DNA of 51,098 bases, taken from NCBI GenBank assembly GCA_012270045.1, contig JAAXJC010000045.1, positions 1 through 51,098 on the forward strand, given 5' to 3'. This stretch comes from Luminiphilus sp. Its GTDB lineage: Bacteria > Pseudomonadota > Gammaproteobacteria > Pseudomonadales > Halieaceae. Of this stretch, positions 6,176 through 46,402 are shown in pieces (the first letter of the stretch is position 1; every line of letters begins with the position of its first letter). The position numbers were made by a program, and so were the translations under genes. The notes beneath the pieces are model-generated. The model saw only the letters and a program-made list of their open reading frames with translations. It was not told the DNA's origin and did not search any database.

Positions 6176-6685
6176 TTACTCCAGCCCGGAGGGCGCGGGC
6201 CAGGTGACGTCCGGGGTGGCCTGGTCGATATCGGCGGCGATTTTCCACTGGCCATCTTCCTTTTTGTACACAAGGAGCGAGCGTCCCGCATCCCGGTAGA
6301 CGGCGCCCGTGGCTTTGTCGGTGGCCTTGAGCCAGTATTTGCTGATGATGTAGGCGATGTCACCTTGGGTTTCCCGCACCTCATACTCCAACTCAAAGGT
6401 GCTCTCGGCTTTGCCCAGGCGCTGGGCAAAATAAGCCCGCACGGCCTCTTTGCCGTAAAGCGCGGGCTGGCCATGCAGGGCAACCACCACGTCGTCCACG
6501 TACAGTGTCATCAGGCCCTGAAGGTCTTCATTTTCATAGTAGCGGGCCCACTTGCCGCCCTCCGCCTCTATGGCGTTGGCCTCGGCGTCCGGCTGGGCTG
6601 GGGCGCTGATCGCCGTGATCGCCAGCACTGTCGAGAGCCCGAGAGCAAGGAACCCCCGCGCCTGCTGCGGTTTGGTCAGCATCAT
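6176..6685 (-). CDS. Exported SnoaL/DUF4440-like protein
   Basis: The 169-residue product starts with a signal peptide (hydrophobic core about residues 11-27, likely cleavage after APA). The mature part reads as an NTF2-like cone fold: helix EGGKWARYYENEDLQGLMTLY, strand VVVALHGQPALYGKEAV, and the late strands SLLVYKKEDGQWKIAADI. This is typical of DUF4440/SnoaL domains, which are small-molecule binding or isomerising scaffolds. Its ATG overlaps the stop of the upstream membrane-protein gene (ATGA). It is the last gene of the methyltransferase operon running from 8813. The signal peptide implies a periplasmic site of action; the ligand is unknown. Confidence 0.8.
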   Translation of the reverse strand: MMLTKPQQARGFLALGLSTVLAITAISAPAQPDAEANAIEAEGGKWARYYENEDLQGLMTLYVDDVVVALHGQPALYGKEAVRAYFAQRLGKAESTFELEYEVRETQGDIAYIISKYWLKATDKATGAVYRDAGRSLLVYKKEDGQWKIAADIDQATPDVTWPAPSGLE

Positions 6686-7332
6686 GGTTTGAAAACCCCA
6701 AGGGCCGCCGCGCCCAGGGCCAGTGCATAAATCATCAGCACCGTGATGTATACGGGCTTCAGTGACCGGGAGTACTGGCTATTGAGAACGGGTTCCTCGG
6801 GGTTATCGGCCAGTGCGGTGAAGAAGCCGACAGCGGGTTTGAAAAACAGATCCAGCAACACCCCGATGACGAAAATGCCACCCACGGCAATGACTTTCCA
6901 GGCCAGCCATGGGGAGGTATCGGTTGCCAGTAGCAGATACAGTCCCGCCCCGGTAACCAGCGGTGCCATGGCCATATTCAGAATCCAGTTGATGATGGCG
7001 CTCTGTTCCTGAACCTTGGGTTCGGTGCTGAGGAAGCCCCGCCAGAGGATGACCAGCCAGACGGCACCCAGTAGCCAGGCCATGGGTATCAGCAAGCCGG
7101 GGGGCTGCATGATCCCCGCTGCTGCCGCCAGATTGAGGCCCGAGGGGATGATGATCGCCAGTGCTGAGCGTGGCAGTCGGTCCAGCACCATGCCCAATTG
7201 CAGCACGATAGCGCGGGTTTCATAGGACAGCTCGGTGCGCTCCGAGTAGCGGGCCGCCAGAAACACGCCCAGGTCGGTGCCGACCCAAAAAACCAGCAGC
7301 AGGATGTGCAGATAGAGCCAAAACTCATACAT
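6682..7332 (-). CDS. Integral membrane protein, paralogue 1 of 3 (LHxxxxVxWxGxD motif)
   Basis: This 216-residue protein has about five or six hydrophobic segments. It opens MYEFWLYLHILLLVFWVGTD, followed by LGVFLAARYSERTELSYETR. The same opening pattern, LH or VH, then VxWxGG(D/E)xGxF and a charged loop, recurs in the proteins at 16508-17152 and 20540-21220. A histidine and W-x-G in the first helix also occur in CopD-, DUF2269- and HemJ-type membrane proteins, so a haem- or quinone-linked role is possible but unproven. It lies 9 bases after the small coiled-coil gene and overlaps the SnoaL-like gene, in one operon with the methyltransferase. Confidence 0.7.
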   Translation of the reverse strand: MYEFWLYLHILLLVFWVGTDLGVFLAARYSERTELSYETRAIVLQLGMVLDRLPRSALAIIIPSGLNLAAAAGIMQPPGLLIPMAWLLGAVWLVILWRGFLSTEPKVQEQSAIINWILNMAMAPLVTGAGLYLLLATDTSPWLAWKVIAVGGIFVIGVLLDLFFKPAVGFFTALADNPEEPVLNSQYSRSLKPVYITVLMIYALALGAAALGVFKP

Positions 7333-7341
7333 GGCGTGGCC

Positions 7342-7632
7342 TCACGGTTCGTCCAGTGGAATGTTGGCGCCCGATTCCAGCACGTCTTTGATTAACTGCA
7401 TGCGGGCCAGCATCCAGGCCTCATCGACATCCTGGTTGGGTTCGAAGGCCTCAATCTGGTCGCTGCTAATGATGCCGGACTGATCGAGCAGGGCTTCTAG
7501 GGTTTTGACCCGTTCTGCCAGCACCGAGTGTTCCGTTAACAGCCGCACAATAATGGCCAGCAGCCGGTCGCTCTCGGGATTGCTGAAGAAAGAGGGTCGA
7601 CCGCCGCGGACCGTTTTATCGTCTGCGCTCAT
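7342..7632 (-). CDS. Small coiled-coil protein paired with methyltransferase, copy 1
   Basis: The 96-residue product has no family I recognise. It has an N-terminal basic segment ending GRPSFFSN, a predicted long helix with heptad-like leucines (about residues 22-50, RLLAIIVRLLTEHSVLAERV), an acidic linker IEAFEPNQDVDE, and a last helix, MQLIKDVL. The protein at 37339-37671 has the same plan: FFDADGVDELLS, then LAERVLAKQGLDISDAIESYEPDD, then RLIQTVL. Each copy lies less than 10 bases downstream of a related methyltransferase gene, so it may be a subunit or chaperone of that enzyme. The partner role is inferred from the repeated gene order. Confidence 0.65.
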   Translation of the reverse strand: MSADDKTVRGGRPSFFSNPESDRLLAIIVRLLTEHSVLAERVKTLEALLDQSGIISSDQIEAFEPNQDVDEAWMLARMQLIKDVLESGANIPLDEP

Positions 7633-7637
7633 GGATC

Positions 7638-8813
7638 CTAGGCCTGTTTCCGGCTGCCGAAGGCGTACCAGGTGATGGTATCCGACAGGCGACCGGTGTC
7701 CTCGTCAAAGCTCGCGGTCTCTCCGACGGCAGCAGCGAAGGTCTGTTCGTCGACGTAGGTATAGCGGGGCAGGGTGGCTTGGAAAAAATCGGCCTCACTG
7801 AACCCGGCGTCGCTGCAAAGCTTGGGGTAGCTCAAATCCCGAAAGCCCTTGTAAAAGGGTTCGTTGTTGTAAAAACAATCCCAGTCCAGGTAGAAGGCAT
7901 CGTAGGGCGCCAGGGCATCATTCGGGGGCAGTTCCATGTGAATCAGCAAGCCCCCCGGTCGCAGCACCCGGAACGCCTCGTTGAAGAACGCCCGAATCAT
8001 GTCGACCGGCAACTCATGCAGGAACATGGAAGAGAAGACCACGTCGACCGAGGCGTCTGCAAAGGGCAAGCGGTCGCAACCCGCCTGTCGGAAGTGGATT
8101 GGGATACCCAAAGCCTCTGCCCGGGCGTGGCCATAGCGCAGGCAGGCTTCGGCGATATCCAGACCATAAACCTCGGCGTCGGGGAAGGCCTGTTTCCAGG
8201 GCAGGGTGTTATGGCCAATGGTGCAGCCGACGTCGACTACCGTGGTCACTGGCATGTCAGGCCATCGCAGCCGCGCAAAATTTGCCATCGAGTGACCGAT
8301 GTCATCCAGTCCTTCACCCATAACGCCAAAGGAGAAAACCTCCAGACCGTTATCGTAGACAGCCCCCGGTGTCAGCCCGGCTTCCGGCCCCTGTCCCTGG
8401 TAGTTGCCCGGCATCAGGTGCACATCCATTTCCTCTGTGTATGCAGGTAGGGGCAGATCGGGATTCAGTTCCAGGCTGCCCTGGCCGCTACCGCCATCGC
8501 TGGCCTGGGACGCCCCGGCGAGGGTACCGGTGTCTGACTGGACGGCACGGAGTGTCGACTGCCACACCAGTTCCTGGGCGGTGCAGCGCAAACTGGAATA
8601 CCACTTGAACAAATCCCGGGATTTCAGGAAAGCATGGACATCCTCGCCGCACCGGTGGCTAACCCCAGCGTCAGCCGCCGCCGAGTCGTAGTCGCTTCGC
8701 ATCTGTGCCGCGAGGTCAACCAGGGTGTAAGCGCGCAGCGCCGAGGTAAACCGCTCCCTGGCACGCTGGTTACTGTCTTTGGCAAGTGCCAGCCCGTGAT
8801 TTAAACCGGCCAT
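7638..8813 (-). CDS. SAM-dependent methyltransferase with unusual N-terminal domain, copy 1
   Basis: This 391-residue protein has a class I methyltransferase domain in its C-terminal half. Motif I is VVDVGCTIGHNT (about 192-203), an acidic strand-2 end is at VYGLDIAEACLRYGHA, and the motif IV/V region reads DVVFSSMFLHELP, then RVLRPGGLL. About 185 residues precede it and match no domain I know. The protein at 37681-38862 aligns along its whole length and shares the residues around GCTIGHNTLPW. The gene leads an operon with a small coiled-coil protein, a membrane protein and a SnoaL-like protein. The substrate is unknown; a carboxyl, hydroxyl or carbon acceptor is equally possible. Confidence 0.85.
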   Translation of the reverse strand: MAGLNHGLALAKDSNQRARERFTSALRAYTLVDLAAQMRSDYDSAAADAGVSHRCGEDVHAFLKSRDLFKWYSSLRCTAQELVWQSTLRAVQSDTGTLAGASQASDGGSGQGSLELNPDLPLPAYTEEMDVHLMPGNYQGQGPEAGLTPGAVYDNGLEVFSFGVMGEGLDDIGHSMANFARLRWPDMPVTTVVDVGCTIGHNTLPWKQAFPDAEVYGLDIAEACLRYGHARAEALGIPIHFRQAGCDRLPFADASVDVVFSSMFLHELPVDMIRAFFNEAFRVLRPGGLLIHMELPPNDALAPYDAFYLDWDCFYNNEPFYKGFRDLSYPKLCSDAGFSEADFFQATLPRYTYVDEQTFAAAVGETASFDEDTGRLSDTITWYAFGSRKQA

Positions 8814-8991: not shown

Positions 8992-11154
8992 ATGACCGAG
9001 TTCTCTGCAATTCGTCTACCCCGAGTGGCATTGGCTGTCGCCGTTGCTGCAACACTGCCCTACGAGGCGGCCCATGCCCAACTGGAGGAGGTTCTGGTCA
9101 CCGCTGAGCGCCGTGAGGCATCGGTACAGGATGTGCCCTTGGCGGTCAGTGCCTACAACCAGGAATTGATTGAAAACCTGCAGCTGGACGACACCCTGGA
9201 CCTGATCAATGTGGTGCCCAACCTGTTTGGGGGTAACAACACCGGCCTTGGCACCGCCAATATGTATTACATGCGCGCCCAGGGTAACGATGAATCCATC
9301 GCTACTTTTGACCCCCCAGTTGGTACCTATGTGGATGACGTCTATATCACGCGTCAGAATGCCAACAACTTCACCCTCTTTGACGTGGAACGGATCGAGG
9401 TGCTGCGTGGTCCCCAGGGCACGCTGTACGGACGCAACACCACCGGGGGTGCGATTTCCATCATCATGCGTAAGCCGGGCGAGGAGATGTCCGGTTATCT
9501 GGAGGGTGGTGTCGGGCGCTGGGATCGCACCATGATGCGCGGCAGCATTGATGTACCCATCAATGACCGGGTACTGACGAAGTTCTCCTATTACACGGTG
9601 GACGACAACGGCTACCTTGAAAATACCGTCGACGGTGAGACCTACAATGAAGTTGATTCCACGGGCTGGCGGGCCGCGTTCAGGTTCCTGCTAACCGACA
9701 CCCTGACCTGGGATGTGTCAGTGGATGGCGGCGACACCCAGGCCGCCAACGTGCACGGCTATATAGACGGCGACCGCAGGGTGTCCGCTTCAACCATTAC
9801 CAATGGCCTGCCCGACTATCTCGATTTCAAGCAGAAAGCCCAGTACGGCAACCAGGTGGATATGCTCAACATCATCTCCAACCTGGGTTGGGAGGTCGGC
9901 GGCGGCACCGCCAACCTGATTTTGGGCAGTCGCCAGATCGACCAGGAATACACCCTTAATTTCCCCAACGCCCTGTCCGATGATTTTTTCATCATCGACA
10001 ACATCGGTGAGCACGATATGTTCTCCGCCGAATTGAAGTGGGCTGGCAATATCATGAATGACCGCGTCTACCTCACCGGCGGCGTCTACTACATGGATGA
10101 GGAGAACACCACGGACTGGCGCGATTACCTGGATCTCGCGGGTGTCGGCGCCACGCCGTTCACCTTCTTTATCGGTCTCGCAGACCGTGTTATGGAAAAC
10201 ACCACAGAAAGCCTGGCGGTCTATGCCCAGGCGGATATCAAGATTGGGGACAGGGGCACCCTGACGGTGGGGGCCCGGTACACCGATGAAACCAAGGACA
10301 TTGGTTTTACCGGTACCGTCACCTCGCAACAGATGGTCGCCGCGGGTATTCCCCTGGAGCAGAAAGAGTCCGAGGTAACCCCTCGCATCGCCTACTCCCA
10401 TGCCATCAACGACGACATGATGGTTTATGTGTCAGCCACCAACGGCTTCAAGTCAGGTGGCTGGAACGCCCGGGCGAGCAGCGGTGCAGCAGCTTTCCCC
10501 TTCGGTCCGGAGAGCATTTGGGCTTACGAAGCGGGCCTCAGGGCCGACTGGCTTGATGGCCGGCTGCGTACCAACCTGACCGCGTTCTATTCTGACCTTG
10601 ATGATTTACAGACCACCTCGGCCTTGCCGGACGGGACCTTCGCCACCACCAACGCCGGTGGTCTGGAGGTACCTGGCTTCGAGGCTGAAATCACCGCCTT
10701 GCCGACAGAGAACTGGCAGATCTTTGCCACCCTCGGGCTGCAGGACGCCAAGTACGTTGATCTTCCCAGTGGCTGCGTGGTGCCGAACACCAGTTTTGCG
10801 GCCTATGACGAGAACTGCAATGCGGCCAAGCCCAAGCGCAGCCCGGATGAAACCTTCACCATTGGCACTTTTGTCGACTTCGACCTCGGGCCGGTGACGC
10901 TGACTCCCAACGCCATGTTGCGCTACATCGGGGAAAACGTAACCGGTACCCGGGGGCTGGGTGAAAACGGCTCTACCACCATCTATAACCTGGGCTTGCG
11001 AATCTCCAGTGCCAAATCCGACTTCTGGGAGGTCAACCTGGAGTGCAAGAACTGCGGCGACGAGACCTTTACCCAATCGATACTGTTTGTTCCCTACTAC
11101 AACATTCCCGAAACATGGATGGCGTCGGTCAAGTTCCGCTTCGGTAACCGATAG
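8992..11154 (+). CDS. TonB-dependent outer-membrane receptor
   Basis: This 720-residue protein has a signal peptide ending AHA (about residue 29). A TonB-box-like stretch, LEEVLVTAERREAS, follows immediately. The plug domain includes VERIEVLRGPQGTLYGRNTTGGAI at about 127-150. The barrel extends to the C-terminus, which ends ASVKFRFGNR; an F lies near but not at the last position. AGGAG about eight bases before the ATG supports the start. The plug signature is that of the large receptor group expanded in sphingomonads and Halieaceae for uptake of hydrophobic or aromatic compounds. The operator-like element upstream suggests substrate-dependent control. Confidence 0.93.
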   Translation: MTEFSAIRLPRVALAVAVAATLPYEAAHAQLEEVLVTAERREASVQDVPLAVSAYNQELIENLQLDDTLDLINVVPNLFGGNNTGLGTANMYYMRAQGNDESIATFDPPVGTYVDDVYITRQNANNFTLFDVERIEVLRGPQGTLYGRNTTGGAISIIMRKPGEEMSGYLEGGVGRWDRTMMRGSIDVPINDRVLTKFSYYTVDDNGYLENTVDGETYNEVDSTGWRAAFRFLLTDTLTWDVSVDGGDTQAANVHGYIDGDRRVSASTITNGLPDYLDFKQKAQYGNQVDMLNIISNLGWEVGGGTANLILGSRQIDQEYTLNFPNALSDDFFIIDNIGEHDMFSAELKWAGNIMNDRVYLTGGVYYMDEENTTDWRDYLDLAGVGATPFTFFIGLADRVMENTTESLAVYAQADIKIGDRGTLTVGARYTDETKDIGFTGTVTSQQMVAAGIPLEQKESEVTPRIAYSHAINDDMMVYVSATNGFKSGGWNARASSGAAAFPFGPESIWAYEAGLRADWLDGRLRTNLTAFYSDLDDLQTTSALPDGTFATTNAGGLEVPGFEAEITALPTENWQIFATLGLQDAKYVDLPSGCVVPNTSFAAYDENCNAAKPKRSPDETFTIGTFVDFDLGPVTLTPNAMLRYIGENVTGTRGLGENGSTTIYNLGLRISSAKSDFWEVNLECKNCGDETFTQSILFVPYYNIPETWMASVKFRFGNR

Positions 11155-20539: not shown

Positions 20540-21220
20540 TCAAACCGCCTTGGTGGCGCCAAAAAAGGCCACGGTGGCGATGGTTACCCAGTACACGTAG
20601 GCCAGGCGCTTGCCCACCACCAGACTGTGTTCAAGACGTGATTCAACCTCACTGTTGGGTCCCTCGGCGAGAACCCTGAACATGGCCGTCCACTCCCGCA
20701 TGATGAAGCGCAGCTTGAGGCCGATCATCAGGGTGCCGCTGTAGAGCAGGATTTTGATTGAGAACCAGTACTGGCCCGGTCCGACGTTGAAGGGCCCGTA
20801 ACCTGCCAGTGATGCCAGCGAGCACAGCAGCAGCGCGGGGATCAGCACGAACCGGACCTTCTCGTCGATCATCGTGAGCTGGATACCGCGGTCTGTCTCG
20901 CGATAAAAATAGGCGGAAATGCAAAGTGCCAGCCAGCACAGGGACAGGGCCCACATGGCCACCAGAAACCAGCCGCCGTAGGGCTGAACGCCCCATATGT
21001 GCCCCATATGAAGACCCAGGGGCAGCAGACTGATAATCCCGATCCGCGCCAGGATGTCGATGTGGTAGGCGGTCTGCATATGGCGCCGCCGCTCATCCAT
21101 GCTCAGGTTCCGATTGATGACATGGGTAGAGGTATTGAACACACCCCATTCACCCCCCAGCCAATACACCATTGCAATGATGTGCAGCCACCTGAGTACC
21201 GCCAGTTCCGTAATGCCCAT
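20540..21220 (-). CDS. Integral membrane protein, paralogue 3 of 3
   Basis: This 226-residue protein opens VLRWLHIIAMVYWLGGEWGVF and continues INRNLSMDERRRH. It keeps the histidine, the W-x-GG-(D/E) motif and the charged loop of its two paralogues, but replaces the SRY/ARY segment with STHV. It has about six hydrophobic segments and extra histidines (LHMGHIW near residues 67-73). It is divergent from the GntR gene, with the operator-like element in between. The role is unknown; a redox-active or haem-associated membrane subunit is one possibility. Confidence 0.7.
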   Translation of the reverse strand: MGITELAVLRWLHIIAMVYWLGGEWGVFNTSTHVINRNLSMDERRRHMQTAYHIDILARIGIISLLPLGLHMGHIWGVQPYGGWFLVAMWALSLCWLALCISAYFYRETDRGIQLTMIDEKVRFVLIPALLLCSLASLAGYGPFNVGPGQYWFSIKILLYSGTLMIGLKLRFIMREWTAMFRVLAEGPNSEVESRLEHSLVVGKRLAYVYWVTIATVAFFGATKAV

Positions 21221-33904: not shown

Positions 33905-35347
33905 ATGGCTTCTGGCCCCGGGCGCGTGATACCGGTAAGAAATCCCCGGACCGGTGAGTACGATACCGAGATTCCAGCGGCGGACAGCAGCGCCGTCGCC
34001 GCCTGGGCGGACCAGCTGCGTGCCGCCCAGGGTGCCTGGCTGGCCCGGGGTGCCGCGGGCAGGGCCGCCATCCTGACCCGCTTTGCCGACGAACTGCAGG
34101 CCCAGTTTTCCGATCTCGCTGAACAGCTGTCTGTCGATACCGGTCGGCGCACCTTTGCGCAGTTTGAAGTGGTGCGCGCCATCGAGTTGCTGCGGCACTG
34201 GGCCGAACGGATAGAGACGGAACTGGACGCGATCAATGACTGCGGTCGATCCCAACAGGTGGCGAGCGTCAGTTTCAGCCACGTCGCGATACCCTACGAG
34301 GTGGTCGCCGTCATCAGCCCCTGGAACGTACCGCTGCTGCTGGCGATGATTGACAGCGCACCGGCGCTGGCGGCCGGCTGCAGCGTTTTGTTGAAGCCCT
34401 CTGAAGTGACGCCCCGGTTCATCGCCCCGCTGCAGGCGGCGCTGTCCCGTGTCCCGGAACTGGCGGCGGTTTTCCGTGTTGTCACCGGTGATGCCGAGAC
34501 CGGTCGGGCGATGATTGACCGGGCGGACGCGGTCTGCTTCACCGGCAGTGTGGCAACGGGTCGCCAGGTAGCACGACAGGCCGCCGAGCGCTTCATCCCG
34601 GCCTTTCTGGAACTTGGGGGTAAGGACCCGGCGCTTGTCCTCGCCGACGCCGATCTCGATATCGCCGCCCGGGCAGTGATTCGCAGCGCGGTGGGCATGA
34701 CCGGACAGGCCTGCCAGTCCCTGGAGCGCATCTACTGTCACGCGGACGTCTACGACGCCTTCCTGGCTACACTGCTGGCACAGTTGGACGAACTGTCATT
34801 GACGCTGTCCGAGGACGGCTCGGGGGATATTGCGCCCCTGATCTTCGCCAGTCAGGCGGAGACCATACAGGACCAGGTTGACCAGGCTGTTGCCCGGGGC
34901 GCCAGGGTATTGCGCGGTGGCAACATTATCGAAGCGGGTGGCCTCTGGTATCCACCGACCGTAGTGGTTGATGTCAGCCAGGACATGGCCCTGATGCAGG
35001 AGGAGACCTTTGGTCCGGTGATTCCCGTGCAGCGGTTTGAGGACCTTGACCAGGCCGTGGCGCTGGCTAATGACTCGGTTTTTGGGCTGTCGGGTGCAGT
35101 ATTTTCAAGAAACGCGGACACGGCAGCGTCCGTCGCCAGTCGCCTGCAGGTGGGTGCGGTCAGTATCAACGATGCCTCATTGACCGGCGTTGTGAACGAT
35201 GTCGAGAAGAACAGCTTTCGCTTGTCGGGCATGGGTGGTTCCCGGATGGGACCCGCCGGGCTGACCCGATTTTTGCGCAAGCGCGCGCTGCTGTTCCAGG
35301 AGGGTGAGCCCGCGTCGGTGGGGTTGTTCGCGGATCCGCCGGTCTAG
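33905..35347 (+). CDS. NAD(P)-dependent aldehyde dehydrogenase
   Basis: The 480-residue product starts at the ATG one base after the lyase stop. Key sites are present: VISPWNVPL (oxyanion Asn), LLKPSEVTP (cofactor Lys), FTGSVATG (NAD loop), FLELGGKDP (general-base Glu) and GQACQSLERI (catalytic Cys). ETFGPVIPV and an FGLSGAVFS segment follow. It oxidises an aldehyde to an acid, perhaps a semialdehyde formed in the pathway. Its final four bases overlap the convergent flavoprotein gene. Confidence 0.92.
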   Translation: MASGPGRVIPVRNPRTGEYDTEIPAADSSAVAAWADQLRAAQGAWLARGAAGRAAILTRFADELQAQFSDLAEQLSVDTGRRTFAQFEVVRAIELLRHWAERIETELDAINDCGRSQQVASVSFSHVAIPYEVVAVISPWNVPLLLAMIDSAPALAAGCSVLLKPSEVTPRFIAPLQAALSRVPELAAVFRVVTGDAETGRAMIDRADAVCFTGSVATGRQVARQAAERFIPAFLELGGKDPALVLADADLDIAARAVIRSAVGMTGQACQSLERIYCHADVYDAFLATLLAQLDELSLTLSEDGSGDIAPLIFASQAETIQDQVDQAVARGARVLRGGNIIEAGGLWYPPTVVVDVSQDMALMQEETFGPVIPVQRFEDLDQAVALANDSVFGLSGAVFSRNADTAASVASRLQVGAVSINDASLTGVVNDVEKNSFRLSGMGGSRMGPAGLTRFLRKRALLFQEGEPASVGLFADPPV

Positions 35348-37326
35348 AGTCCTGCGGCGACCCGGTAGGCCTCCCGGGTGGTCGCCAGCAGGGAGCGTGG
35401 TGCCCTGCAGTCACCAATGGTGCGTACGTCCAGGCCCTCATCCTGTAACGGCTTGAGCAGTTGGTCGTTCGGGACTCGACTGCTGGCGTGGGTCAGAGCC
35501 ACCACATCCTGCAACAGGGTCACCTCGCCTGAATAGACATTTCGCACGGCAAGCTCGGCTTGCTCCAGGGGATCCAGGCTGTGGGGCTCAACGTTGCACA
35601 GTAGGGCAATCCCCAGATCGTGCAGCCGCTGGTAAATGCCCTGGCGGTTGATCAGCGACACGTCGTGGGCGATTCGCTCGCGACTGGTAACGATGGTGAC
35701 AGCAGAAAAGCGGGCAGCGAACAGCTCCGCCGCCGCATAAGTCAGTTCGGTGTGATCCTGGTCGACAATAATTAGCCGGCCCTCGGTGATATCGCTGCGA
35801 TTCAGCAACTGGTTCGCCAACTCCCGTATGCCCGGTACCAGACCCGCCTCGGCCCAGTCATCGCCCAGCCAGTGCGGGACAGTCGCACGGGCACCTGTCG
35901 CCAGCAGGGTGATATCGGGCTGGCAAGCCAGAATATCCTGCAGGGTTGCCTGCCGGCCGAGTTCGAAACGGACCCCGAGTCGTGTGGCAGTAAGGTACTG
36001 GTAGTCATAGACGCTGGACAGGTTCTCACCACCGGGTAGTTGGGCATGCAGGCGGGTCTTGCCGCCGGGGTTGTCGTGGTCGCCAAGAACCGTCACCCGG
36101 TGACCCCGGCGGGCTGCGGTCAACGCGGCCTCCAGGGCGGCGACGCCGGTGCCTACAATCGCGACGTGTTTGCTGCTGGCGATTTGTACGGGCTGCCAGT
36201 CGTGTTCATCGACTTCCCCGACCCTTGGATTGTTGTCACATTCCAGCCCGGCGCCATCGATGATGCTGCGCCAGCAGGTATTACAGGACACGCAATAGCG
36301 GATGTCGGCCTCCCGACCCTGCTGGCTTTTGCGGGGAAACGCCGGGTCGGTGATCAGGGGCCGGCCCAGGAAAACCACATCCGCCGACCCGTCGGTGAGC
36401 GCCGTCTCGCACTCGTTCGGGTCGGTCAGGTAGCCGATGGCACCGCTGGCCACGGCCGGAGCAGCTTGGCGCAGTGTTTTGATATGTTCCAGATAGGGAT
36501 GCCGGTCACCGTGGGCATCGGGCAGGTGCTTGTACAGTGAGCGCGCGTGGGCACCCCAGACCCAGGTCCAGCAATCGAACACTCCCTGAAGCTGGCCCAG
36601 GCGGCCGGCGATGTCTTGGGCCATAGGCAGATCGATGCCCCCCGGTACGCCGTCGTCACCGGGCAACTTGAGGCTGATGATAAAGGGCTGCGGGCATTCG
36701 TTACGAATAGCTGCGACCAGTTCCCGCAGGAATCGGGTTCGGCCCTCGAGGTCCCCGCCGTATTCGTCCTGCCGGTGGTTGGACCAGGGCGAGAGAAACT
36801 GGTGAAAAAGGTGTCCGTGGCCGGCCGAAATTTCAACGCCGGCGAAGCCGGCCCGGCTCAGGCGCCCACAGCCCCGGGCCCAGTCTTCGATCATGTCATT
36901 GATTTCAGCGCTGGACAGTACCGAGGGCACGGTCCAGCTCAGATCGTCGGGCAGGGCCGATGCGCCCACCGCGCTGTCGTTGCGACCGACGGCATGACGG
37001 CCGCGACCTGAATCCTGAACCTGCCCCAAAATCTCAGCGCCCTCACGGTTCACTGTTTCAGCAACCCGCTGCAGGGCATCGAATTCCCGGTCGTCCCACA
37101 CCCGCAGTCGCGAGGGAATCCGGTTGTGGGCGGTCATCGCCAGGGGCTCGGTGATGATGGCCGCCGCGCCCCCCGCAGCCCGGGACCGATAGTAGTTCAG
37201 CAGCTTCTCGGTGGGCAGGCCCTGGCTGACGTATTTGGTGACAATGGACGCATGGATAATGCGATTTCTCAGTTGAACACCGCCCAGTTCAATGGGGCTG
37301 AACAGAGTCGGGTAGGTGTCGGTCAC
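35344..37326 (-). CDS. NADH:flavin oxidoreductase, FadH/trimethylamine-dehydrogenase-like
   Basis: This 660-residue three-domain flavoprotein has an old-yellow-enzyme TIM barrel at about 1-340, with the catalytic-type loop GHGHLFHQFLSPWSNHRQDEYGG. A 4Fe-4S site follows, CVSCNTC...C with C-x2-C-x2-C-x11-C spacing, near 345-365. An FAD/NAD-binding part starts VAIVGTGVAALEAALTAARRG. Relatives reduce dienoyl-CoA or enones, or oxidise amines. It is the third gene of the operon starting with the second methyltransferase and may process the methylated product or an unsaturated intermediate. Confidence 0.9.
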   Translation of the reverse strand: MTDTYPTLFSPIELGGVQLRNRIIHASIVTKYVSQGLPTEKLLNYYRSRAAGGAAAIITEPLAMTAHNRIPSRLRVWDDREFDALQRVAETVNREGAEILGQVQDSGRGRHAVGRNDSAVGASALPDDLSWTVPSVLSSAEINDMIEDWARGCGRLSRAGFAGVEISAGHGHLFHQFLSPWSNHRQDEYGGDLEGRTRFLRELVAAIRNECPQPFIISLKLPGDDGVPGGIDLPMAQDIAGRLGQLQGVFDCWTWVWGAHARSLYKHLPDAHGDRHPYLEHIKTLRQAAPAVASGAIGYLTDPNECETALTDGSADVVFLGRPLITDPAFPRKSQQGREADIRYCVSCNTCWRSIIDGAGLECDNNPRVGEVDEHDWQPVQIASSKHVAIVGTGVAALEAALTAARRGHRVTVLGDHDNPGGKTRLHAQLPGGENLSSVYDYQYLTATRLGVRFELGRQATLQDILACQPDITLLATGARATVPHWLGDDWAEAGLVPGIRELANQLLNRSDITEGRLIIVDQDHTELTYAAAELFAARFSAVTIVTSRERIAHDVSLINRQGIYQRLHDLGIALLCNVEPHSLDPLEQAELAVRNVYSGEVTLLQDVVALTHASSRVPNDQLLKPLQDEGLDVRTIGDCRAPRSLLATTREAYRVAAGL

Positions 37327-37338: not shown

Positions 37339-37671
37339 TCAGCCGCCGGTGGCGTCGGAGCCCGGGGGATTTTCATCGGGGATGGGGCTGGCATCCCCGG
37401 CGTTGCCCAGCTGCGCGAGCACTGTTTGGATCAGGCGCTCCCGGCTGGCAGCGAGTTCGGCCTGTTCCCCGTCATCGGGTTCATAGCTTTCAATGGCGTC
37501 GCTGATATCCAGGCCCTGTTTTGCCAATACCCGCTCGGCCAGGTACAGCCGTTCTTTCACCGCAGATATCTCCGCGGTCAGGCGCAACACACAGCTCAGC
37601 AGTTCATCGACCCCGTCAGCATCAAAAAACCGATGCCGTTGGCCGCGGCGTTTTCTGGGAATCTGTCGCAT
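37339..37671 (-). CDS. Small coiled-coil protein paired with methyltransferase, copy 2
   Basis: This 110-residue protein begins with a basic stretch (MRQIPRKRRGQRH), then FFDADGVDELLSCVLRL, a long amphipathic helix with an ERLYLAERVLAKQGLDI segment, an ESYEPDDGEQ linker, and a C-terminal proline-rich acidic tail. It matches the plan of the product at 7342-7632 and, like it, follows a methyltransferase gene (gap 9 bases). No known family is recognised. It may be an obligate partner of the methyltransferase. Confidence 0.65.
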   Translation of the reverse strand: MRQIPRKRRGQRHRFFDADGVDELLSCVLRLTAEISAVKERLYLAERVLAKQGLDISDAIESYEPDDGEQAELAASRERLIQTVLAQLGNAGDASPIPDENPPGSDATGG

Positions 37672-37680
37672 GGCCGGCTC

Positions 37681-38862
37681 CTAGGCCTTCCAGGCGCCAA
37701 AGCCGTACCAGCGGGTTCCTTTGGGGTCCATACGGCCGGTCAGGGTGTCAAAGGTATTGTCGCCGGCGAGGGCGGCTTTGAAGGCCTCCTCTCCAACGAA
37801 GGTATAACGGGGCATCGTCGCTTCGATGAAATCCCCGTCGCGGAAGCCGGCGTCAGTCAGCAACTTGCGATAGTCCTGGCGTCTGAAGGTGCCGTAGTAG
37901 GGCTCGTTGTTGTAGTAGGTATCCCAGTTCATATAGAAATTTTCATAGTCGGGCATGGCGTCCATGGGCGGCAGCTCCATCTGCCACAGCACGCCGCCGG
38001 GCTTGAGCACCCGGTAGGCCTCACGCAGGTAGGCCTGAATATCTTTCAGCGGTAGCTCGTGCATGAACATGGAGGAGAACACCACATCAAACTCGCCGTC
38101 ACCGAATTCCAGCTCCGTTGCGTTCATCTGCCGAAAGTGTACGGGGATACCCATGGACTGGGCCCGGGCATGGCCATAACGCAGCACCGGTGCGGCGACG
38201 TCAATGGCGTGCACCTCGGCGTCGGGGAAGGCCGTCGCCCAGGGCAGGGTGTTGTGGCCAATGGTGCAGCCGCAGTCAAGAATCCGGTCGGGTTTGAATT
38301 CGGGGTAGGCGAGTCGGATGTAATTGGCCAGCGTGCTGCCGATGTCGTTGAGTTCCTGACCGAACTGGCCGAAGGCAAACACCTCGATGGAGTTGTCGTA
38401 TACCGCTCCTGCGCACAAATCCTGGTCCTGGTATTCGGCGTGGTAACTGCCGGGCGCCAGGTGCACGTCGATGCCGGTAACATTGACCGGCAGGTCCAGT
38501 TCGGGGTGGAGGGTCAGTGTGCCGCCGCAGTCCGCCGCCGGGTTGTGCTCATTCAGTGCCTGGCGATTGCGATCGACGGCGTCGCTGACCACATCGAACA
38601 CCATTTCCTGGGCCGCTGTGCGCACGCTGCTGTAGGCCTTGAAAGGAAACTCGCCGCGCAGTGCCCGATGAATCTTCTCGGGCTCGCCCAGTTTATCGCC
38701 CCGTTTGGCGTGTTCCGGTGCGACGGCGCCTTCGAAATGGTCCCGAAGTCCCGCTGACATCTGTTGCAAAACGTGCGAGCGCAGGCTCGATACAAACGCT
38801 CTTCTCGCCCGGTCTTCCTGGGTCAGCGGGATACCCATACCGTGCTCATGGGATCGGTGCAT
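37681..38862 (-). CDS. SAM-dependent methyltransferase with unusual N-terminal domain, copy 2
   Basis: The 393-residue protein is a full-length paralogue of the product at 7638-8813. Motif I is ILDCGCTIGHNTLPW, followed by VHAIDVAAPVLRYGHARAQSMGIPVHFRQ, DVVFSSMFMHELP and YRVLKPGGVLW. The N-terminal 190 residues (with PFKAYSSVRTAAQEMVFDVV matching FKWYSSLRCTAQELVWQST in copy 1) are of unknown fold. The gene is divergent from the HapK-like/SDR pair, with an operator-like element between, and heads the operon MT, small protein, flavoprotein. Retention of two copies suggests two methyl-transfer steps or two substrates. Confidence 0.85.
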   Translation of the reverse strand: MHRSHEHGMGIPLTQEDRARRAFVSSLRSHVLQQMSAGLRDHFEGAVAPEHAKRGDKLGEPEKIHRALRGEFPFKAYSSVRTAAQEMVFDVVSDAVDRNRQALNEHNPAADCGGTLTLHPELDLPVNVTGIDVHLAPGSYHAEYQDQDLCAGAVYDNSIEVFAFGQFGQELNDIGSTLANYIRLAYPEFKPDRILDCGCTIGHNTLPWATAFPDAEVHAIDVAAPVLRYGHARAQSMGIPVHFRQMNATELEFGDGEFDVVFSSMFMHELPLKDIQAYLREAYRVLKPGGVLWQMELPPMDAMPDYENFYMNWDTYYNNEPYYGTFRRQDYRKLLTDAGFRDGDFIEATMPRYTFVGEEAFKAALAGDNTFDTLTGRMDPKGTRWYGFGAWKA

Positions 38863-38909: not shown

Positions 38910-38992
38910 GACTCCCGAGTATCGCATAAACTGAAACCGGCTGTTGATGCCCTTCCGGCTCACAACAGCTTCCAGTGGGAGGCCGGTCACTT

Positions 38993-39304
38993 ATGACAAC
39001 AATAGTAGTGCTCTTTAACCTGAAGCCCGAGACCGTACTCGAAGACTATGAGAGCTGGGCACAAACGGTGGATATACCCAATGTGCGCAGGCTGCCCGGA
39101 GTGTCCGGATTCCAGGTGCTCGCCGCCCGGGGTCTGTTGAACGGCGATCCCGAGGTGCCGTACTCCCACGTGGAGCTCATCGAAGTCGATGATATGGAAG
39201 CCTTCAGGGGGGCGGTGGGCACACCTGAAATGCAGGCTGTCGCTGCCCAGTTCCAGGCCTACGCCCTGAACCCCGTCTTTATGGTGACCGAGCCGCTGGC
39301 ATGA
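38993..39304 (+). CDS. Small dimeric alpha/beta-barrel protein, HapK (REDY)-like
   Basis: The ATG at 38993, with GGAGG upstream, gives 103 residues: MTTIVVLFNLKPETVLEDYESWA, then VDIPNVRRLPGVSGFQVL, then YSHVELIEVDDMEAF. This matches by memory the HapK/REDY-like family, a ferredoxin-fold dimer first named from a prodigiosin gene cluster, whose members otherwise have no assigned reaction. A GTG at 38975 is a less likely start. It overlaps the SDR gene (ATGA). Confidence 0.7.
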   Translation: MTTIVVLFNLKPETVLEDYESWAQTVDIPNVRRLPGVSGFQVLAARGLLNGDPEVPYSHVELIEVDDMEAFRGAVGTPEMQAVAAQFQAYALNPVFMVTEPLA

Positions 39305-40104
39305 AGGGCCTGGCGGGCAAAGTCGCCCTGTGCACCGGTTCCGGGCGCCCGGGGGGGCTGGGCCACGGCATACTGACACGCTTGGGCGACGCCGGTTGTC
39401 GGCTGGTGGTCACCGATTTGGCTTCGGTGCTGGCGCCCGATGATGATGGCGCCGCCAATGCCGTTGTTGCTGATCTGCAGGCCAAAGGCTACCCGGTGCT
39501 GTCAGTCCCCTGTGACATCAGCAGCGAAGACTCTGTGGTTGCGGCTGTTGGCACCGTGATGGCTGAGTGGGGTCGGCTCGACATTGTGATCAACAATGCG
39601 GCGATCGGTGATGTCATCTGCCCGCTGCCCGAGCTGGATTTTGCGGACTGGCAGCGGGTGATTGCGGTCAATCTCTCCGGCGCCTTTCTCATGACCCGAG
39701 AGGCGGGCAGGGTGATGTCAGAGGGTGGCAGTGTCATCAATATTGCCAGTCAGGCAGCGAAGACCGGGTTTCGGCAAATGGCGCCCTATGTGGCGTCCAA
39801 GCACGGCATGATCGGTCTGACCCGGACCTCCGCGATCGATCTGGCGCCGCTGGGTATCCGGGTTAATGCGGTATGTCCAAACCACGTCACCACCGCAATG
39901 GGTAAGGCCCAGAGCGAGTATTTTTCTGCCCTGCGCGGCTTGAGTGCCGAGGACTATCGGGCGGGAATCGCGGAGCGTGTGCCCCTTGGCCGGGTGGGGC
40001 AGCCCGGGGATACCGCTGCCGCAGTGGCATTTCTGGCCTCTGACGAGGCGACCTTTATCACCGGCGAGGCGCTCAACGTCAGCGGTGGCGAGGAAATGCA
40101 CTGA
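39301..40104 (+). CDS. Short-chain dehydrogenase/reductase (SDR), copy 2
   Basis: This 267-residue protein has the cofactor loop TGSGRPGGLG (12-21), NNAA at about 98-101 in place of the usual NNAG, and catalytic S150, Y163 and K167 (YVASK). Its C-terminus is EALNVSGGEEMH. It closely resembles the SDR at 11633-12463, including the unusual GRPGGLG loop and end. It is coupled to the HapK-like gene, and its last 26 bases overlap the convergent DUF1643 gene. It is probably the last member of the catabolic regulon. Confidence 0.92.
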   Translation: MKGLAGKVALCTGSGRPGGLGHGILTRLGDAGCRLVVTDLASVLAPDDDGAANAVVADLQAKGYPVLSVPCDISSEDSVVAAVGTVMAEWGRLDIVINNAAIGDVICPLPELDFADWQRVIAVNLSGAFLMTREAGRVMSEGGSVINIASQAAKTGFRQMAPYVASKHGMIGLTRTSAIDLAPLGIRVNAVCPNHVTTAMGKAQSEYFSALRGLSAEDYRAGIAERVPLGRVGQPGDTAAAVAFLASDEATFITGEALNVSGGEEMH

Positions 40105-41138: not shown

Positions 41139-41243
41139 ACCTGCGCTTTTGGGAAAGCCGTCAAAAGATGTGTTTACTCACCTTTTTTTCTGACAGCCAA
41201 TGTGTCAAGTTGTAGTTGGGGGAAGATAAAAAGAAGTAGTGCT

Positions 41244-43052
41244 GTGAAAGCAACCAATACCAACAATCCTGAATACTTCCACAAAGTGGTGGATTGTCAG
41301 TACGCCTGTCCGGCCCACACACCGGTGCCGGAGTACATTCGCCTGATCGCTGCCGGTCGTTACACCGATGCCTACATGGTTAACTGGGAATCCAATGTGT
41401 TCCCCGGCATTTTGGGGCGCACCTGCGATCGTCCCTGCGAGCCGGTCTGCCGCCGTGGTCGGGTCGAGGAGGAAGCGGTCGCCATTTGCCGGCTGAAACG
41501 TGTGGCGGCCGACAACAAGGACGAAGTCTCCCACCTGCTGCCCAAGGCGCCGCTGGAAGGCAACGGTAAACGGGTGGCGCTGATCGGTGCCGGTCCCGCC
41601 TCCCTCACCGTGGCCCGTGACCTCGCGCCCCTGGGTTATCAGTTGGATCTCTATGATGACCAGCCCCTGGGTGGCGGTTTTATGCGCAGTCAGATACCCG
41701 TATTCAGGCTGCCCCCCGAGGTCCTTGATGAAGAGGTGAATTTCATTCTGGACATGGGCATCAAGCAGCACTTCCAGACCTATGTATCCAGTCTCAAATC
41801 TATTCTGCAGCAGGGCTACGACGCGGTTTTCGTAGGCACCGGTGCGCCCAGGGGCAGTGATCTCGATATTCCCGGTCGGGAGGCCTGTGAGAAGTCAATT
41901 CACGTGGGTATTGATTGGCTGGCCTCGGTCGCCTTCGAACACACGGCGAAAATAGGCAAACGTGTGCTGGTGCTGGGTGGGGGTAACACCGCCATGGATT
42001 GCTGTCGCACCGCCCGCCGTCTCGGTGGCGACGATGTCAAGGTCGTGGTCCGATCCGAGTTTGCCCGGATGAAAGCGTCGCCCTGGGAGATCGAGGACGC
42101 GGTGGCGGAAGATATTCCGATTATCAACAACCACGTGCCGAAAGAGTTTGTGCATGAGGATGGTGTCCTCAAGGGCATGCGGTTCACGGTTGTTAACGTG
42201 GTCTATGACGCCGACGGTAAGCGGGAACTGGTGCCCACGGGGGAGGAGGTTTTCTTCGAGGCCGATGAGGTCATCATAGCCATTGGCCAGGACAATGCCT
42301 TTCCCTGGATTGAGCGGGATCTGGGCATTGAGTTCGGCAAGTGGGACATGCCGGTGGTCGACAAGACTACGTTCCAGAGTTCCCTGAAAAAGGTGTTCTT
42401 CGGTGGTGATGCCGCCTTCGGACCCGAAAATATTATTACCGCCGTGGCCCATGGCCACCAGGCGGCCATTTCCATTGACCTGTTCCTGAAGGAGGGTCGG
42501 GTGGACCAGCGACCCGCTCCAGGCGTCACCCTGGTCAGCCAGAAAATGGGTGTGCACGAGTGGAGCTACGACAGCGAGGTGTCTACCGACGACCGCTACC
42601 CAGTACCCCATGTCAGCAAAGAGAAAGCCCTCAAAGACCGCAAAGTAGAGGTTGAACTGGGTTTTGATCCCTCGGTGGCTTACCAGGAAGCGGAGCGCTG
42701 TCTGAACTGTGACGTGCAGACGGTGTTTACCACCTCCAAATGCATAGAGTGCGATGGCTGCGTCGATATTTGCCCAACGGACTGTATCAACTTTATTGAT
42801 AACAACGATGAACCGGCACTGCGTGAGTCCTTGCGCCGACCGGCACGCAATCAGGACCAGGATCTGTATGTGTCCACAGCCTTACCCCAGACCCAACGGG
42901 TGATGGTCAAGGATGAGAATGTCTGCCTGCACTGTGGCCTGTGCGCCGAACGCTGCCCCACGGGTGCCTGGGACATGCAACGATTCTTCTACAGCGTCAC
43001 CAAGGCTGGAAGCCCATGCAAGCAAAGCAGTCCATTAATGACTTCGTCATAA
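41244..43052 (+). CDS. NADPH-dependent glutamate-synthase-small-chain-like oxidoreductase with fused ferredoxin domain
   Basis: A GTG at 41244 gives 602 residues, close to where related proteins start (NNPEYF); the frame is open to 41202. N-terminal cysteines (CQYACPAHT and CDRPCEPVC) bind Fe-S as in GltD. Two nucleotide folds follow (VALIGAGPASLTVA and VLVLGGGNTAMDCCRTARRLGG). The C-terminus has two 4Fe-4S ferredoxin motifs, CIECDGCVDICPTDC and CLHCGLCAERCP. It would shuttle electrons between NAD(P)H and the ferredoxin centres of the 2-oxoacid oxidoreductase encoded next. The next gene starts 37 bases before its stop. Confidence 0.9.
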   Translation: MKATNTNNPEYFHKVVDCQYACPAHTPVPEYIRLIAAGRYTDAYMVNWESNVFPGILGRTCDRPCEPVCRRGRVEEEAVAICRLKRVAADNKDEVSHLLPKAPLEGNGKRVALIGAGPASLTVARDLAPLGYQLDLYDDQPLGGGFMRSQIPVFRLPPEVLDEEVNFILDMGIKQHFQTYVSSLKSILQQGYDAVFVGTGAPRGSDLDIPGREACEKSIHVGIDWLASVAFEHTAKIGKRVLVLGGGNTAMDCCRTARRLGGDDVKVVVRSEFARMKASPWEIEDAVAEDIPIINNHVPKEFVHEDGVLKGMRFTVVNVVYDADGKRELVPTGEEVFFEADEVIIAIGQDNAFPWIERDLGIEFGKWDMPVVDKTTFQSSLKKVFFGGDAAFGPENIITAVAHGHQAAISIDLFLKEGRVDQRPAPGVTLVSQKMGVHEWSYDSEVSTDDRYPVPHVSKEKALKDRKVEVELGFDPSVAYQEAERCLNCDVQTVFTTSKCIECDGCVDICPTDCINFIDNNDEPALRESLRRPARNQDQDLYVSTALPQTQRVMVKDENVCLHCGLCAERCPTGAWDMQRFFYSVTKAGSPCKQSSPLMTSS

Positions 43053-44896
43053 AGTTTGCCAACGTGAATGGCACTGGCTCGGCCAGCGCCAACAGTATGT
43101 TTGCCAAGGCCATCTTCCGGATGGGTATCCCCGTCAGCCCAAGAAATATCTTTCCTTCCAATATCCAGGGCATGCCCACGTGGTATGAGGTTCGCGTCAG
43201 CCAGGACGGTTACCTTGGGCGCCGCGGGGGCACCGACATCATGGTCTGCGTCAATCCGCAGAGCATCAAACGTGACGTGGCCGAGGTCGAGTCCGGGGGT
43301 TATTTTATCTATGACTCCACCAAGCCACTGGACCTGAGGCTGGTGCGTGAGGATGTCAATTACATCGGCATACCGTTCACTGATATTTGCCTGCGGGAAT
43401 ACACCGATGCCCGCCAGCGCCTGCTGTTCAAGAATGTCATCTATGTGGGTGCGCTGTCGGCGCTGATGAACATAGATTTCAACGTGCTCAAGGATCTGGT
43501 GGCTGACCAGTTCAAGGGCAAGGAAAAGCTGATTACCCCCAATATCTATGCGCTGGAGTTGGGTCACCAGTACGCCAGTACCCATTTTGACTGCCCCATT
43601 GGTATCCACCTCGAACGTGGACATCGCGTGGCGAAGCACATTGAGGACTTCGACAACATCCTGATGGACGGCAACACAGCGGCCGCACTGGGCGCCGTTT
43701 ACGCCGGGGCGACCGTGGCCGCCTGGTACCCCATTACCCCATCAACGTCCGTGGTTGATGCCTTCGATAAATATTGTCGTCGGCTGCGTATTGACCCGGG
43801 CACTGGCAAGAAAAATTACGCGATTATCCAGGCGGAGGACGAGTTGTCTGCCCTGGGTATGGTGATCGGTGCCAATTGGAACGGTGCCAGGGCGTTCACC
43901 GCAACCAGCGGTCCCGGGGTGTCCCTGATGAGCGAGTTTCTCGGTCTGGCCTATTTCGCCGAGGTGCCCACCGTGCTGATCGACGTACAGCGTGCGGGGC
44001 CCTCCACGGGGATGCCCACGCGCACCCAGCAGTCCGATGTCCTGATGGCGGCCTATGCCTCCCACGGCGACACCAAGCACGTGCTGCTGTTCCCCGCGAC
44101 CCCGGCGGAGTGCTTCAGCATGACGGTCGAGGCCTTTGACCTGGCTGAGCGCCTGCAGACCCCCATTATCATCATGAGCGACCTCGACCTGGGGATGAAC
44201 GAGTGGATGTCGCCGCCCCTGGAGTTCGATGACAACTTCCGCTACGACAGGGGTAAAGTACTGAGCGCCGAAGATCTCGATCGAATGGAGGAGCGCTTTG
44301 GTCGCTACAAGGATGTAGACGGTGACGGCATACCCTATCGAACCTATCCGGGGGCCCACCCTGAGAAAGGAGCGTATTTCACCCGGGGCTCCTCCCGTGA
44401 CGAATACGCCGCCTATACCGAAGACGGTGCCGAATATGTGCGCAACATGGATCGGCTACTGAAGAAATTTGAAACCGCCAAGTCACTGGTGCCCGAGCCG
44501 AAAATAAAGCAGTCCGAGATGGAGACCCGTCACGGTGCCGTGTTCTTTGGCACCACGGCCTCCCCCGCGTACGAGGCCATTGAGATCCTTGAAAAAGAGG
44601 GGATTGACCTGGACACCATGCGCATACGGTCCTTCCCTTTCAATATGGATGTCGAAAAATTCATCCGGGAACACGACCGGATATTTGTCATTGAGCAGAA
44701 CCGGGACGGCCAGATGCGCCGACTGATGCTCAACGAGACCAGTGCCGAGGCCAAGGAAAAGCTCATCCCCATTCTGGAATATGACGGCTTGCCGGTCACC
44801 GCGCGGAAAATCGCCGGCATGATCCGCAACTACATTACCCACGGCAACGTCACGCCCCTGACACGGCGCGCCGCAGTCGAGGAGGAAACAGCATGA
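43016..44896 (+). CDS. 2-oxoacid:ferredoxin oxidoreductase, fused gamma-alpha subunit (KorA-type)
   Basis: I choose the ATG at 43016, inside the end of the previous gene, giving 626 residues. The N-terminal gamma domain starts FVIKFANVNGTGSASANSMFAKAIFRMG and carries MPTWYEVRVSQDGYLGRRGGTDIMV. The alpha domain starts near NTAAALGAVYAGATVAAWYPITPSTS (about 220) and includes AEDELSALGMVIGANWNGARAFTATSGPG. This is the layout of 2-oxoglutarate- or 2-oxoacid-type enzymes with fused gamma and alpha chains. It oxidatively decarboxylates a 2-oxoacid to acyl-CoA with reduction of ferredoxin. Its stop overlaps the beta-subunit start (ATGA). Confidence 0.9.
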   Translation: MQAKQSINDFVIKFANVNGTGSASANSMFAKAIFRMGIPVSPRNIFPSNIQGMPTWYEVRVSQDGYLGRRGGTDIMVCVNPQSIKRDVAEVESGGYFIYDSTKPLDLRLVREDVNYIGIPFTDICLREYTDARQRLLFKNVIYVGALSALMNIDFNVLKDLVADQFKGKEKLITPNIYALELGHQYASTHFDCPIGIHLERGHRVAKHIEDFDNILMDGNTAAALGAVYAGATVAAWYPITPSTSVVDAFDKYCRRLRIDPGTGKKNYAIIQAEDELSALGMVIGANWNGARAFTATSGPGVSLMSEFLGLAYFAEVPTVLIDVQRAGPSTGMPTRTQQSDVLMAAYASHGDTKHVLLFPATPAECFSMTVEAFDLAERLQTPIIIMSDLDLGMNEWMSPPLEFDDNFRYDRGKVLSAEDLDRMEERFGRYKDVDGDGIPYRTYPGAHPEKGAYFTRGSSRDEYAAYTEDGAEYVRNMDRLLKKFETAKSLVPEPKIKQSEMETRHGAVFFGTTASPAYEAIEILEKEGIDLDTMRIRSFPFNMDVEKFIREHDRIFVIEQNRDGQMRRLMLNETSAEAKEKLIPILEYDGLPVTARKIAGMIRNYITHGNVTPLTRRAAVEEETA

Positions 44897-45942
44897 CCTA
44901 CGTCAAACCCAGCTTCAGGCACCCCGAGGCTCCGATCAATGATTTGGGCCGGACACGGCAGGACTACGAGGGTGGGCTTTCGACTTTGTGCGCCGGTTGT
45001 GGTCATGACTCGATCAGCGCTGCAATCATAGATGCCTGCTTCGAGCTGAATATCGAGCCCCATAAAGTGGCCAAGTTGTCCGGGATTGGCTGTTCTTCCA
45101 AGACACCGGCTTATTTTCTTTCCGGTTCCCACAGCTTCAACAGCGTGCATGGCCGCATGCCGTCGGTGGCAACGGGGGCCAACCTGGCCAACCGGGACCT
45201 GATTTACATCGGAATCTCCGGCGACGGTGATACCGCCTCAATCGGCCTCGGCCAGTTTGCCCATGTGGTTCGGCGTAATCTCAATATGACCTACATCGTC
45301 GAAAATAACGGCTGTTACGGGCTGACCAAGGGGCAGGATTCGGCCACCATGGACACGGGCTCCCCCAACAAAAAGGGGGATATCAATATGTACTCCCCCA
45401 TCGATCTGGCCCGCTTGGCCATCGAAATTGGCGCCACCTTCGTCGGTCGCAGTTTTTCAGGGGACAAGCAGCAGTTGATCCCGCTTATCAAGGCCGCCAT
45501 CAGTCACCGGGGCTTTGCCCTGCTGGACGTCGTATCGCCCTGTGTCACCTTCAATAACCACAGCGAGTCGACCAAGAGTTATGAGTACGTGCGGGGAGCC
45601 AACTCGGGTATGCCTGTGGATTTCGTGCCCATGCGCCAGGAGATCACGGCCACCTACGATTCCGGCGCCACCTGTGAAGTCTGCATGCACGATGGCTCTG
45701 TGGTTCGCCTGTACAAGCAGGACAACGATTACGACATAGAGGACCGTCAGTCCGCTCTGGAAGCCACCAGTCACTATGCTCGCGAGGGCAAGATCCTGAC
45801 AGGCCTGCTCTATATCCAGCGCGACAGCGAAGAATTACACGATGTGCTCGGGACCGCGCGTCGGCCCCTGAACTCGATGACCGAGCAGCAGTTGTGTCCC
45901 GGCTCTCGGTTTCTCGACTCAATTAATGCCGGGTTGCGCTGA
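44893..45942 (+). CDS. 2-oxoacid:ferredoxin oxidoreductase, beta subunit (KorB-type)
   Basis: This 349-residue thiamine-diphosphate subunit has CAGCGHDSISAAI (Fe-S or TPP region), ISGDGDTASIGLGQFAHVVRRNLNMTYIVENNG (the GDGD...N TPP-binding motif) and LLDVVSPCVTFNN. It pairs with the preceding gamma-alpha chain to form the catalytic dimer. The operon is a complete unit with its NADPH-linked electron carrier. It may feed on pyruvate or 2-oxoglutarate. No operator-like element lies upstream, so it is probably core metabolism. Confidence 0.92.
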   Translation: MTYVKPSFRHPEAPINDLGRTRQDYEGGLSTLCAGCGHDSISAAIIDACFELNIEPHKVAKLSGIGCSSKTPAYFLSGSHSFNSVHGRMPSVATGANLANRDLIYIGISGDGDTASIGLGQFAHVVRRNLNMTYIVENNGCYGLTKGQDSATMDTGSPNKKGDINMYSPIDLARLAIEIGATFVGRSFSGDKQQLIPLIKAAISHRGFALLDVVSPCVTFNNHSESTKSYEYVRGANSGMPVDFVPMRQEITATYDSGATCEVCMHDGSVVRLYKQDNDYDIEDRQSALEATSHYAREGKILTGLLYIQRDSEELHDVLGTARRPLNSMTEQQLCPGSRFLDSINAGLR

Positions 45943-46370: not shown

Positions 46371-46402
46371 GCCACCCAAGTCATGGGCTTCTGTGGGTGG
46401 GC
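46371..46402. terminator. Possible bidirectional stem-loop between convergent genes
   Basis: CCACCCA (46372-46378) can pair with TGGGTGG (46394-46400). It lies between the stops of two convergent genes, but no U-tract follows on either strand, so it may be a weak or Rho-aided terminator only. Confidence 0.3.

Follow-up and report, generated by a model that had tools for sequence, protein, structure and literature searches.

Class I methyltransferases such as UbiE, BioC and the ArsM-like enzymes (Methyltransf_25/11) have in common with the methyltransferase-like protein described here (MT) a C-terminal Rossmann domain, the SAM motif I, an acidic motif II and a post-IV region. Unlike them, this MT carries an N-terminal domain of about 190 residues with a DxHxxPG motif, and its gene is linked to that of a small helical partner (SM). 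The MT is also similar to DnrK, RdmB and TamK, which combine a helical N-terminal part with a Rossmann C-terminal part; the top VIA-align match (Z 16.7) spans both parts, and the DnrK alignments cover MT residues 13-393, with Z scores tied with those of matches confined to the catalytic domain. However, these three proteins share only 12-16% identity with the MT, there is no significant Methyltransf_2 match, and we know of no small partner gene for any of them. With respect to two-subunit enzymes, the Trm112-activated methyltransferases need a partner subunit. METTL3-METTL14 is likewise a methyltransferase with an essential partner subunit (PMC5023411). The likeness of the MT-SM pair to these systems is one of working principle only, in that a non-catalytic partner would be needed for the catalytic MT to be active or stable. 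Unlike those partners, the SM is modelled as a helical hairpin with no match to any of them, the dependence on it is a hypothesis, and the genomic context is that of small-molecule catabolism and not of RNA modification.

The window, i.e. the whole stretch of DNA that was analysed, comprises 51,098 nucleotides from Luminiphilus sp. (Halieaceae). Among public sequences, its nearest relatives are MAGs of Halieaceae (Luminiphilus). A preliminary description of it had reported two loci in which an MT gene is followed within 10 bases by an SM gene. This arrangement was recovered at both loci, with all four open reading frames on the minus strand and with the following surroundings:

37681..38862, minus strand: copy 1 MT, 393 aa; helical N-terminal domain at residues 1 to about 190, class I SAM methyltransferase domain at about 191-393
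37339..37671, minus strand: copy 1 SM, small helical partner, 110 aa; starts 9 nt past the MT stop
35344..37326, minus strand: OYE-type FMN/FAD oxidoreductase, next gene of the copy 1 operon
38975..39304, plus strand: HapK/REDY-like small protein, divergent from the copy 1 MT
39301..40104, plus strand: SDR oxidoreductase, downstream of HapK
7638..8813, minus strand: copy 2 MT, 391 aa; 47% identity to the copy 1 MT
7342..7632, minus strand: copy 2 SM, small helical partner, 96 aa; starts 5 nt past the MT stop
6682..7332, minus strand: multi-helix membrane protein, 216 aa, downstream of copy 2; no Pfam match
6176..6685, minus strand: SnoaL/DUF4440-like protein, closing gene of the copy 2 operon
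8992..11154, plus strand: TonB-dependent receptor, divergent from the copy 2 MT

At both MT-SM junctions there is a plausible ribosome-binding sequence (TAGGAG in copy 1, TAGGA in copy 2). Both protein pairs are paralogous, as had been claimed: the two MTs can be aligned over 389 residues (E = 5e-130), and the two SMs are 34% identical over 85 residues (E = 1e-13). The genes beyond the SM differ, copy 1 continuing into the OYE-like flavoenzyme and copy 2 into the membrane protein and the SnoaL-like protein. The two window proteins were placed in separate, well-supported groups of a tree built from 114 non-redundant MTs, each group containing orthologues from other genomes. Since each copy groups with its own orthologues, the two are old paralogues, and a local tandem duplication is ruled out on the same grounds. 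Another genome (G062) also has both copies 29 kb apart.

The pairing extends far beyond the window. Within the Halieaceae, the MT family was detected in 35 of the 140 sampled genomes and the SM profile in 36, with 34 genomes common to both lists; the three mismatches are contig-edge truncations (G090 with the MT only, G088 and G082 with the SM only), and in G088 the MT C-terminus is visible at the contig end. In the broader occurrence search, for which only the MT N-terminal domain served as the query, the class sample of 369 genomes yielded 8 with a match and the phylum sample of 398 yielded 4. In the class around genome G773, 385 genomes were sampled and 25 of them carried the MT family, which was also detected on Novosphingobium, Sphingobium and Sphingomonas plasmids. 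In the first survey, 71 of 76 MT matches had an SM encoded in the same orientation and no more than 300 bp away (66 downstream, 4 upstream and one apparent fusion), the commonest spacing being a 4-nt overlap. The apparent fusion (L073, 480 aa) proved to be an artefact, as comparison with L069-L072 placed a frameshift in the MT C-terminus that runs into the SM frame. For the other five matches, inspection showed an SM adjacent to the MT in L065, a broken MT with the SM downstream in L075, the edge of the locus in L128, and an SM within the same locus in L114 and L119. The gene order was reversed in L118, L128 and L074, which implies that the MT-SM linkage survives rearrangement. Thus, the co-occurrence suspected from the two window loci is conserved, with tight spacing, across Gamma- and Alphaproteobacteria.

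The pairing, the co-divergence of the two proteins, the conservation of the MT motifs and the catabolic type of the gene context were all established by computation. On balance, we lean towards reading each locus as encoding a two-subunit, SAM-dependent class I enzyme that acts in catabolism, with the SM docked on the N-terminal helices of the MT.

The preliminary description had called the two-component enzyme obligate. The pairing and the co-divergence support the two components, and in the clade that holds both window copies 21 of 21 MTs are paired, members from family f281 included (f281 being placed in the Alphaproteobacteria by inference, as G773 shares its class with the sphingomonad-like matches). 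Outside f281, an SM is strictly adjacent to 59 of 75 non-redundant MTs, 4 more of the 75 gain a weak adjacent match with an iterated SM profile, and about 7 have an SM elsewhere in the locus, so that about 70 of the 75 have an SM at the locus and about 5 do not. In f281 itself, however, most MTs stand alone. The genomes G968, G1083, G1244 and G1173, which are 2.2-4.0 Mb in size, contain 42, 42, 65 and 16 MT copies, whereas the SM profile detected only 7, 7, 8 and 5 SMs, respectively. Most of the f281 MTs that were inspected had no SM within several kb. The MT loci of these four genomes (L204-L217 and L223-L243) include some tandem arrays (L226, L229 and L242). In addition, an MT was found in genome G899, where no SM could be detected. 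With 16-65 MTs and 5-8 SMs per f281 genome, "obligate" is too strong a word, and the shortage of SMs means that some MTs, at the least, function without an SM or have one in common with others, and such an SM might act in trans. MTs without the small gene, which the preliminary description had named as counter-evidence, thus occur in one part of the family, but not in the part that includes the window copies. Paralogue-rich families of catabolic enzymes have been described in SAR202 bacteria (PMC6946804, PMC10444878), and f281 is like them in that each genome carries numerous paralogues from an enzyme family with a catabolic context; unlike SAR202, it concerns a SAM methyltransferase family in Alphaproteobacteria, and the likeness is one of evolutionary pattern only.

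The existence of numerous stand-alone f281 MTs that keep the same catalytic motifs is also what would be expected if the MT were catalytically complete alone and the SM were a co-transcribed accessory, e.g. a dedicated chaperone, a regulator or a link to another pathway enzyme. The SM sequence is indeed far less conserved than that of the MT, with no invariant column among 51-56 sequences. However, across changing neighbourhoods the SM tracks the MT and no single other pathway gene, and the divergence of the two proteins is closely matched. The correlation of the MT and SM distance matrices (mirror-tree) was r = 0.88 for 43 non-redundant pairs, and none of 2000 permutations gave a value as high. 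Because neighbouring genes share the history of the locus they co-diverge too, and therefore controls were computed on the same loci; the correlation with the MT was 0.67 for SDR, 0.73 for HapK and 0.88 for TonB. The partial MT-SM correlation remained high after removal of the divergence of SDR (0.86), HapK (0.93) or TonB (0.74), and was only 0.40 given the membrane protein, for which 8 loci were available. The MT-SM co-divergence is thus mostly independent of the neighbours and exceeds what they explain. An accessory role of the SM therefore appears rather improbable to us, and the two-subunit enzyme remains our preferred reading.

The SM had been described as a coiled-coil protein, which agrees with the AlphaFold2 model (pLDDT 80): two long helices, at residues 21-51 and 67-91, form a helical hairpin, consistent with a coiled coil or hairpin. 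The SM has no Pfam or NCBIfam match above threshold; when 56 SM members were compared with Pfam, Trm112 was not matched and for no family was the E-value lower than 0.0039, and the model had no Foldseek match in the PDB below E = 1. The best PDB profile match, the alpha subunit of nitrile hydratase, was discarded as not significant (E = 0.04). With respect to contact sites, MT residues 54-110 were involved in 21 of the 60 MT-SM position pairs with the highest mutual information, where about 11 would be expected; as this calculation used about 73 effective sequences and no phylogenetic correction, it gives a weak hint that the enriched region may be the docking surface for the SM.

The MT itself gave significant Pfam and PDB matches to class I methyltransferases. 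The two window copies scored 84.5 and 80.8 bits against the class I methyltransferase domain Methyltransf_25 (cut-off 27). These Pfam matches begin at about residue 192, and residues 1 to about 190 match no family in Pfam or NCBIfam, in agreement with the description of this domain as unrecognised. The MTs stay below the NCBIfam equivalog cut-offs of CpaM (61 of 180 bits), BioC (52 of 185) and UbiE (51 of 158), and below the Pfam gathering threshold of CMAS (cyclopropane fatty acid synthase; 14.2 and 16.5 bits, threshold 27). The Methyltransf_2 threshold (PF00891, 22.3) was not reached either, with 11.2 bits for P0003 and no match listed for P0001. The structure model of the MT is confident (pLDDT 93.3, pTM 0.93) and consists of helices at residues 15-53, 61-68 and 72-98, followed by the Rossmann domain. 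Its catalytic half matches solved class I methyltransferases (Foldseek, VIA-align), and searches with the whole MT returned only matches driven by the catalytic domain, so that the fold of the N-terminal domain was not identified by these two programs. Among 106 non-redundant MT relatives, paired or not, P125, H134, G202, H268, E269 and R284 occur without exception, and G198, D221 and D259 are nearly invariant; the SAM motif I (D196-x-G198-C199-x-x-G202) and the acidic D221 are conserved in nearly all of them. H134 belongs to the DxHxxPG motif at residues 132-138 in the N-terminal domain and, since it is conserved there, this domain probably contributes to the active site.

The invariance of H134, H268 and E269 could alternatively indicate that SAM is used without methylation by an enzyme of the RdmB or TamK kind, for example a hydroxylase, a decarboxylase or an isomerase, with DxHxxPG and the His-Glu pair forming a metal or acid-base site. 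A methyltransferase inside a degradative cluster is unusual, and the structural matches include RdmB and TamK (Z about 15.5). However, when the whole MT model was compared by VIA-align, DnrK, RdmB and many other methyltransferase structures were tied at Z 15.5-16.7, RdmB and TamK being no better than ordinary O-, N- and C-methyltransferases, and the sequence profile is nearest to ordinary methyltransferases. We therefore consider a non-methylating enzyme distinctly unlikely.

From the observations above we infer an MT-SM complex, its docking site, methyl transfer and a class of substrate. In the two-subunit enzyme that we favour, most likely a methyltransferase, SAM and the substrate would be held in the large subunit between its two parts, the helical N-terminal domain and the Rossmann SAM domain at the C-terminus. 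DxHxxPG, through H134, would probably make up part of the substrate site, as would His268-Glu269 in the catalytic domain. The helical hairpin of the SM probably docks on the N-terminal helices of the MT, at about residues 61-98, and by bracing them it may stabilise the enzyme or shape the substrate pocket.

The loci that carry the pair differ in their neighbouring genes, yet these are all of one kind: TonB receptors, SDRs, zinc ADHs, ALDHs, CoA-transferases, hydantoinase A/B, NtaA-type monooxygenases, OYE or fumarate-reductase-like flavoenzymes, DUF1838 proteins and MFS transporters. TonB receptors (41 surveyed loci) and SDRs (35) are among the most frequent. In the Halieaceae the order MT-SM-OYE is kept in L004-L008 and L042-L048, and the OYE gene of copy 1 resembles mycofactocin OYE_2, BaiCD and bilirubin-reductase, all below the cut-off. 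The DUF1838 gene, on which there is hardly any literature (a single mention in the papers searched), lies beside the pair in about 10 loci (at 3232-4233 in the window, and in L064-L066, L077, L117, L121, L125 and L128). The membrane protein next to copy 2 is one of three paralogous multi-helix proteins of about 215 aa in the window (6682-7332, 16508-17152 and 20540-21220, all on the minus strand), with almost no Pfam signal, and the family is present in 22 surveyed MT loci. Elsewhere in the window (41202-45942 and 46402-48648), genes similar to pyruvate/indolepyruvate:ferredoxin oxidoreductase occur with an Fe-S flavoprotein, and beside them, in this marine gammaproteobacterium, a molybdopterin oxidoreductase.

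The window from about 11 to 40 kb (11000-40100) is homologous to the 2.5-45 kb region of plasmid pJE1, with identities of 66% for the isochorismatase, 60% for the LeuC-like protein, 58% for the CoA-transferase and 58% for the HMG-CoA-lyase-like protein. pJE1 (L123) has the same divergent SDR-HapK / MT-SM core as copy 1 of the window, and plasmid b of TomTYG65 (pTomTYG65b, L126) carries this core in the same gene order; one of the sphingomonad plasmids with the SDR-HapK / MT core comes from a tomato-soil isolate. The presence of the core on sphingomonad plasmids is evidence of horizontal spread. The island at 11000-40100 also contains two polysaccharide-deacetylase-like hydrolases, a LeuCD-like hydratase, a DUF3108-like protein, an MFS transporter and a TonB receptor. 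Judged by its gene profile, the island is a predicted mobile degradative pathway. The intermediates suggested by its isochorismatase, two deacetylase-like hydrolases, LeuCD-like hydratases and its lyases are ring-opened amides or imides and substituted maleates. As a speculation based in part on the HMG-CoA-lyase-like and hydantoinase-type genes, the starting compound is perhaps an N-heterocycle or bilin-like. The small-molecule substrate of the MT-SM enzyme would lie within such a pathway, with uptake by TonB and MFS proteins followed by SDR, OYE, ALDH, CoA-transferase and hydratase steps, and the two window copies, as members of different old subfamilies, would probably each take a different intermediate of this one island as substrate. 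That the MT and the SM merely co-travel in such islands as an inherited operon habit, without interacting, would fit the mobility of the islands on sphingomonad plasmids and the equal co-divergence of the TonB gene of the same locus with the MT, but we regard it as very unlikely, because the linkage persists in two proteobacterial classes, in loci with reversed gene order and in neighbourhoods of many types, and because the Halieaceae genomes with the SM are those with the MT.

The claim that no described family has this pairing was borne out, as nothing was found for the pair, the SM or the MT N-terminal domain, and the literature searched contained no description of an MT-SM pair. While the catalytic domain is that of an ordinary class I methyltransferase, the N-terminal domain, the SM, their fixed pairing and the many-copy radiation are new among the libraries and literature searched. 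Methylation usually serves in biosynthesis or in the modification of molecules. As a more tentative proposal, which we hold to be possible but doubtful, the pair may found a large new family of two-subunit SAM-dependent catabolic enzymes, in which the SM was shared or lost during a radiation to as many as 65 copies in one alphaproteobacterial genome, and which would perform a methylation (or methylation-fold) step that is standard yet unrecognised in the degradation of complex natural compounds. The conserved pair offers a direct handle on this proposal, as two small genes can be co-expressed and the enzymes of the cluster constrain the substrate, and the family provides a natural test of helper dependence, with similar catalytic subunits with and without an SM. 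If true, this would point to an overlooked type of reaction in the breakdown of complex organic matter in the sea and in soil.
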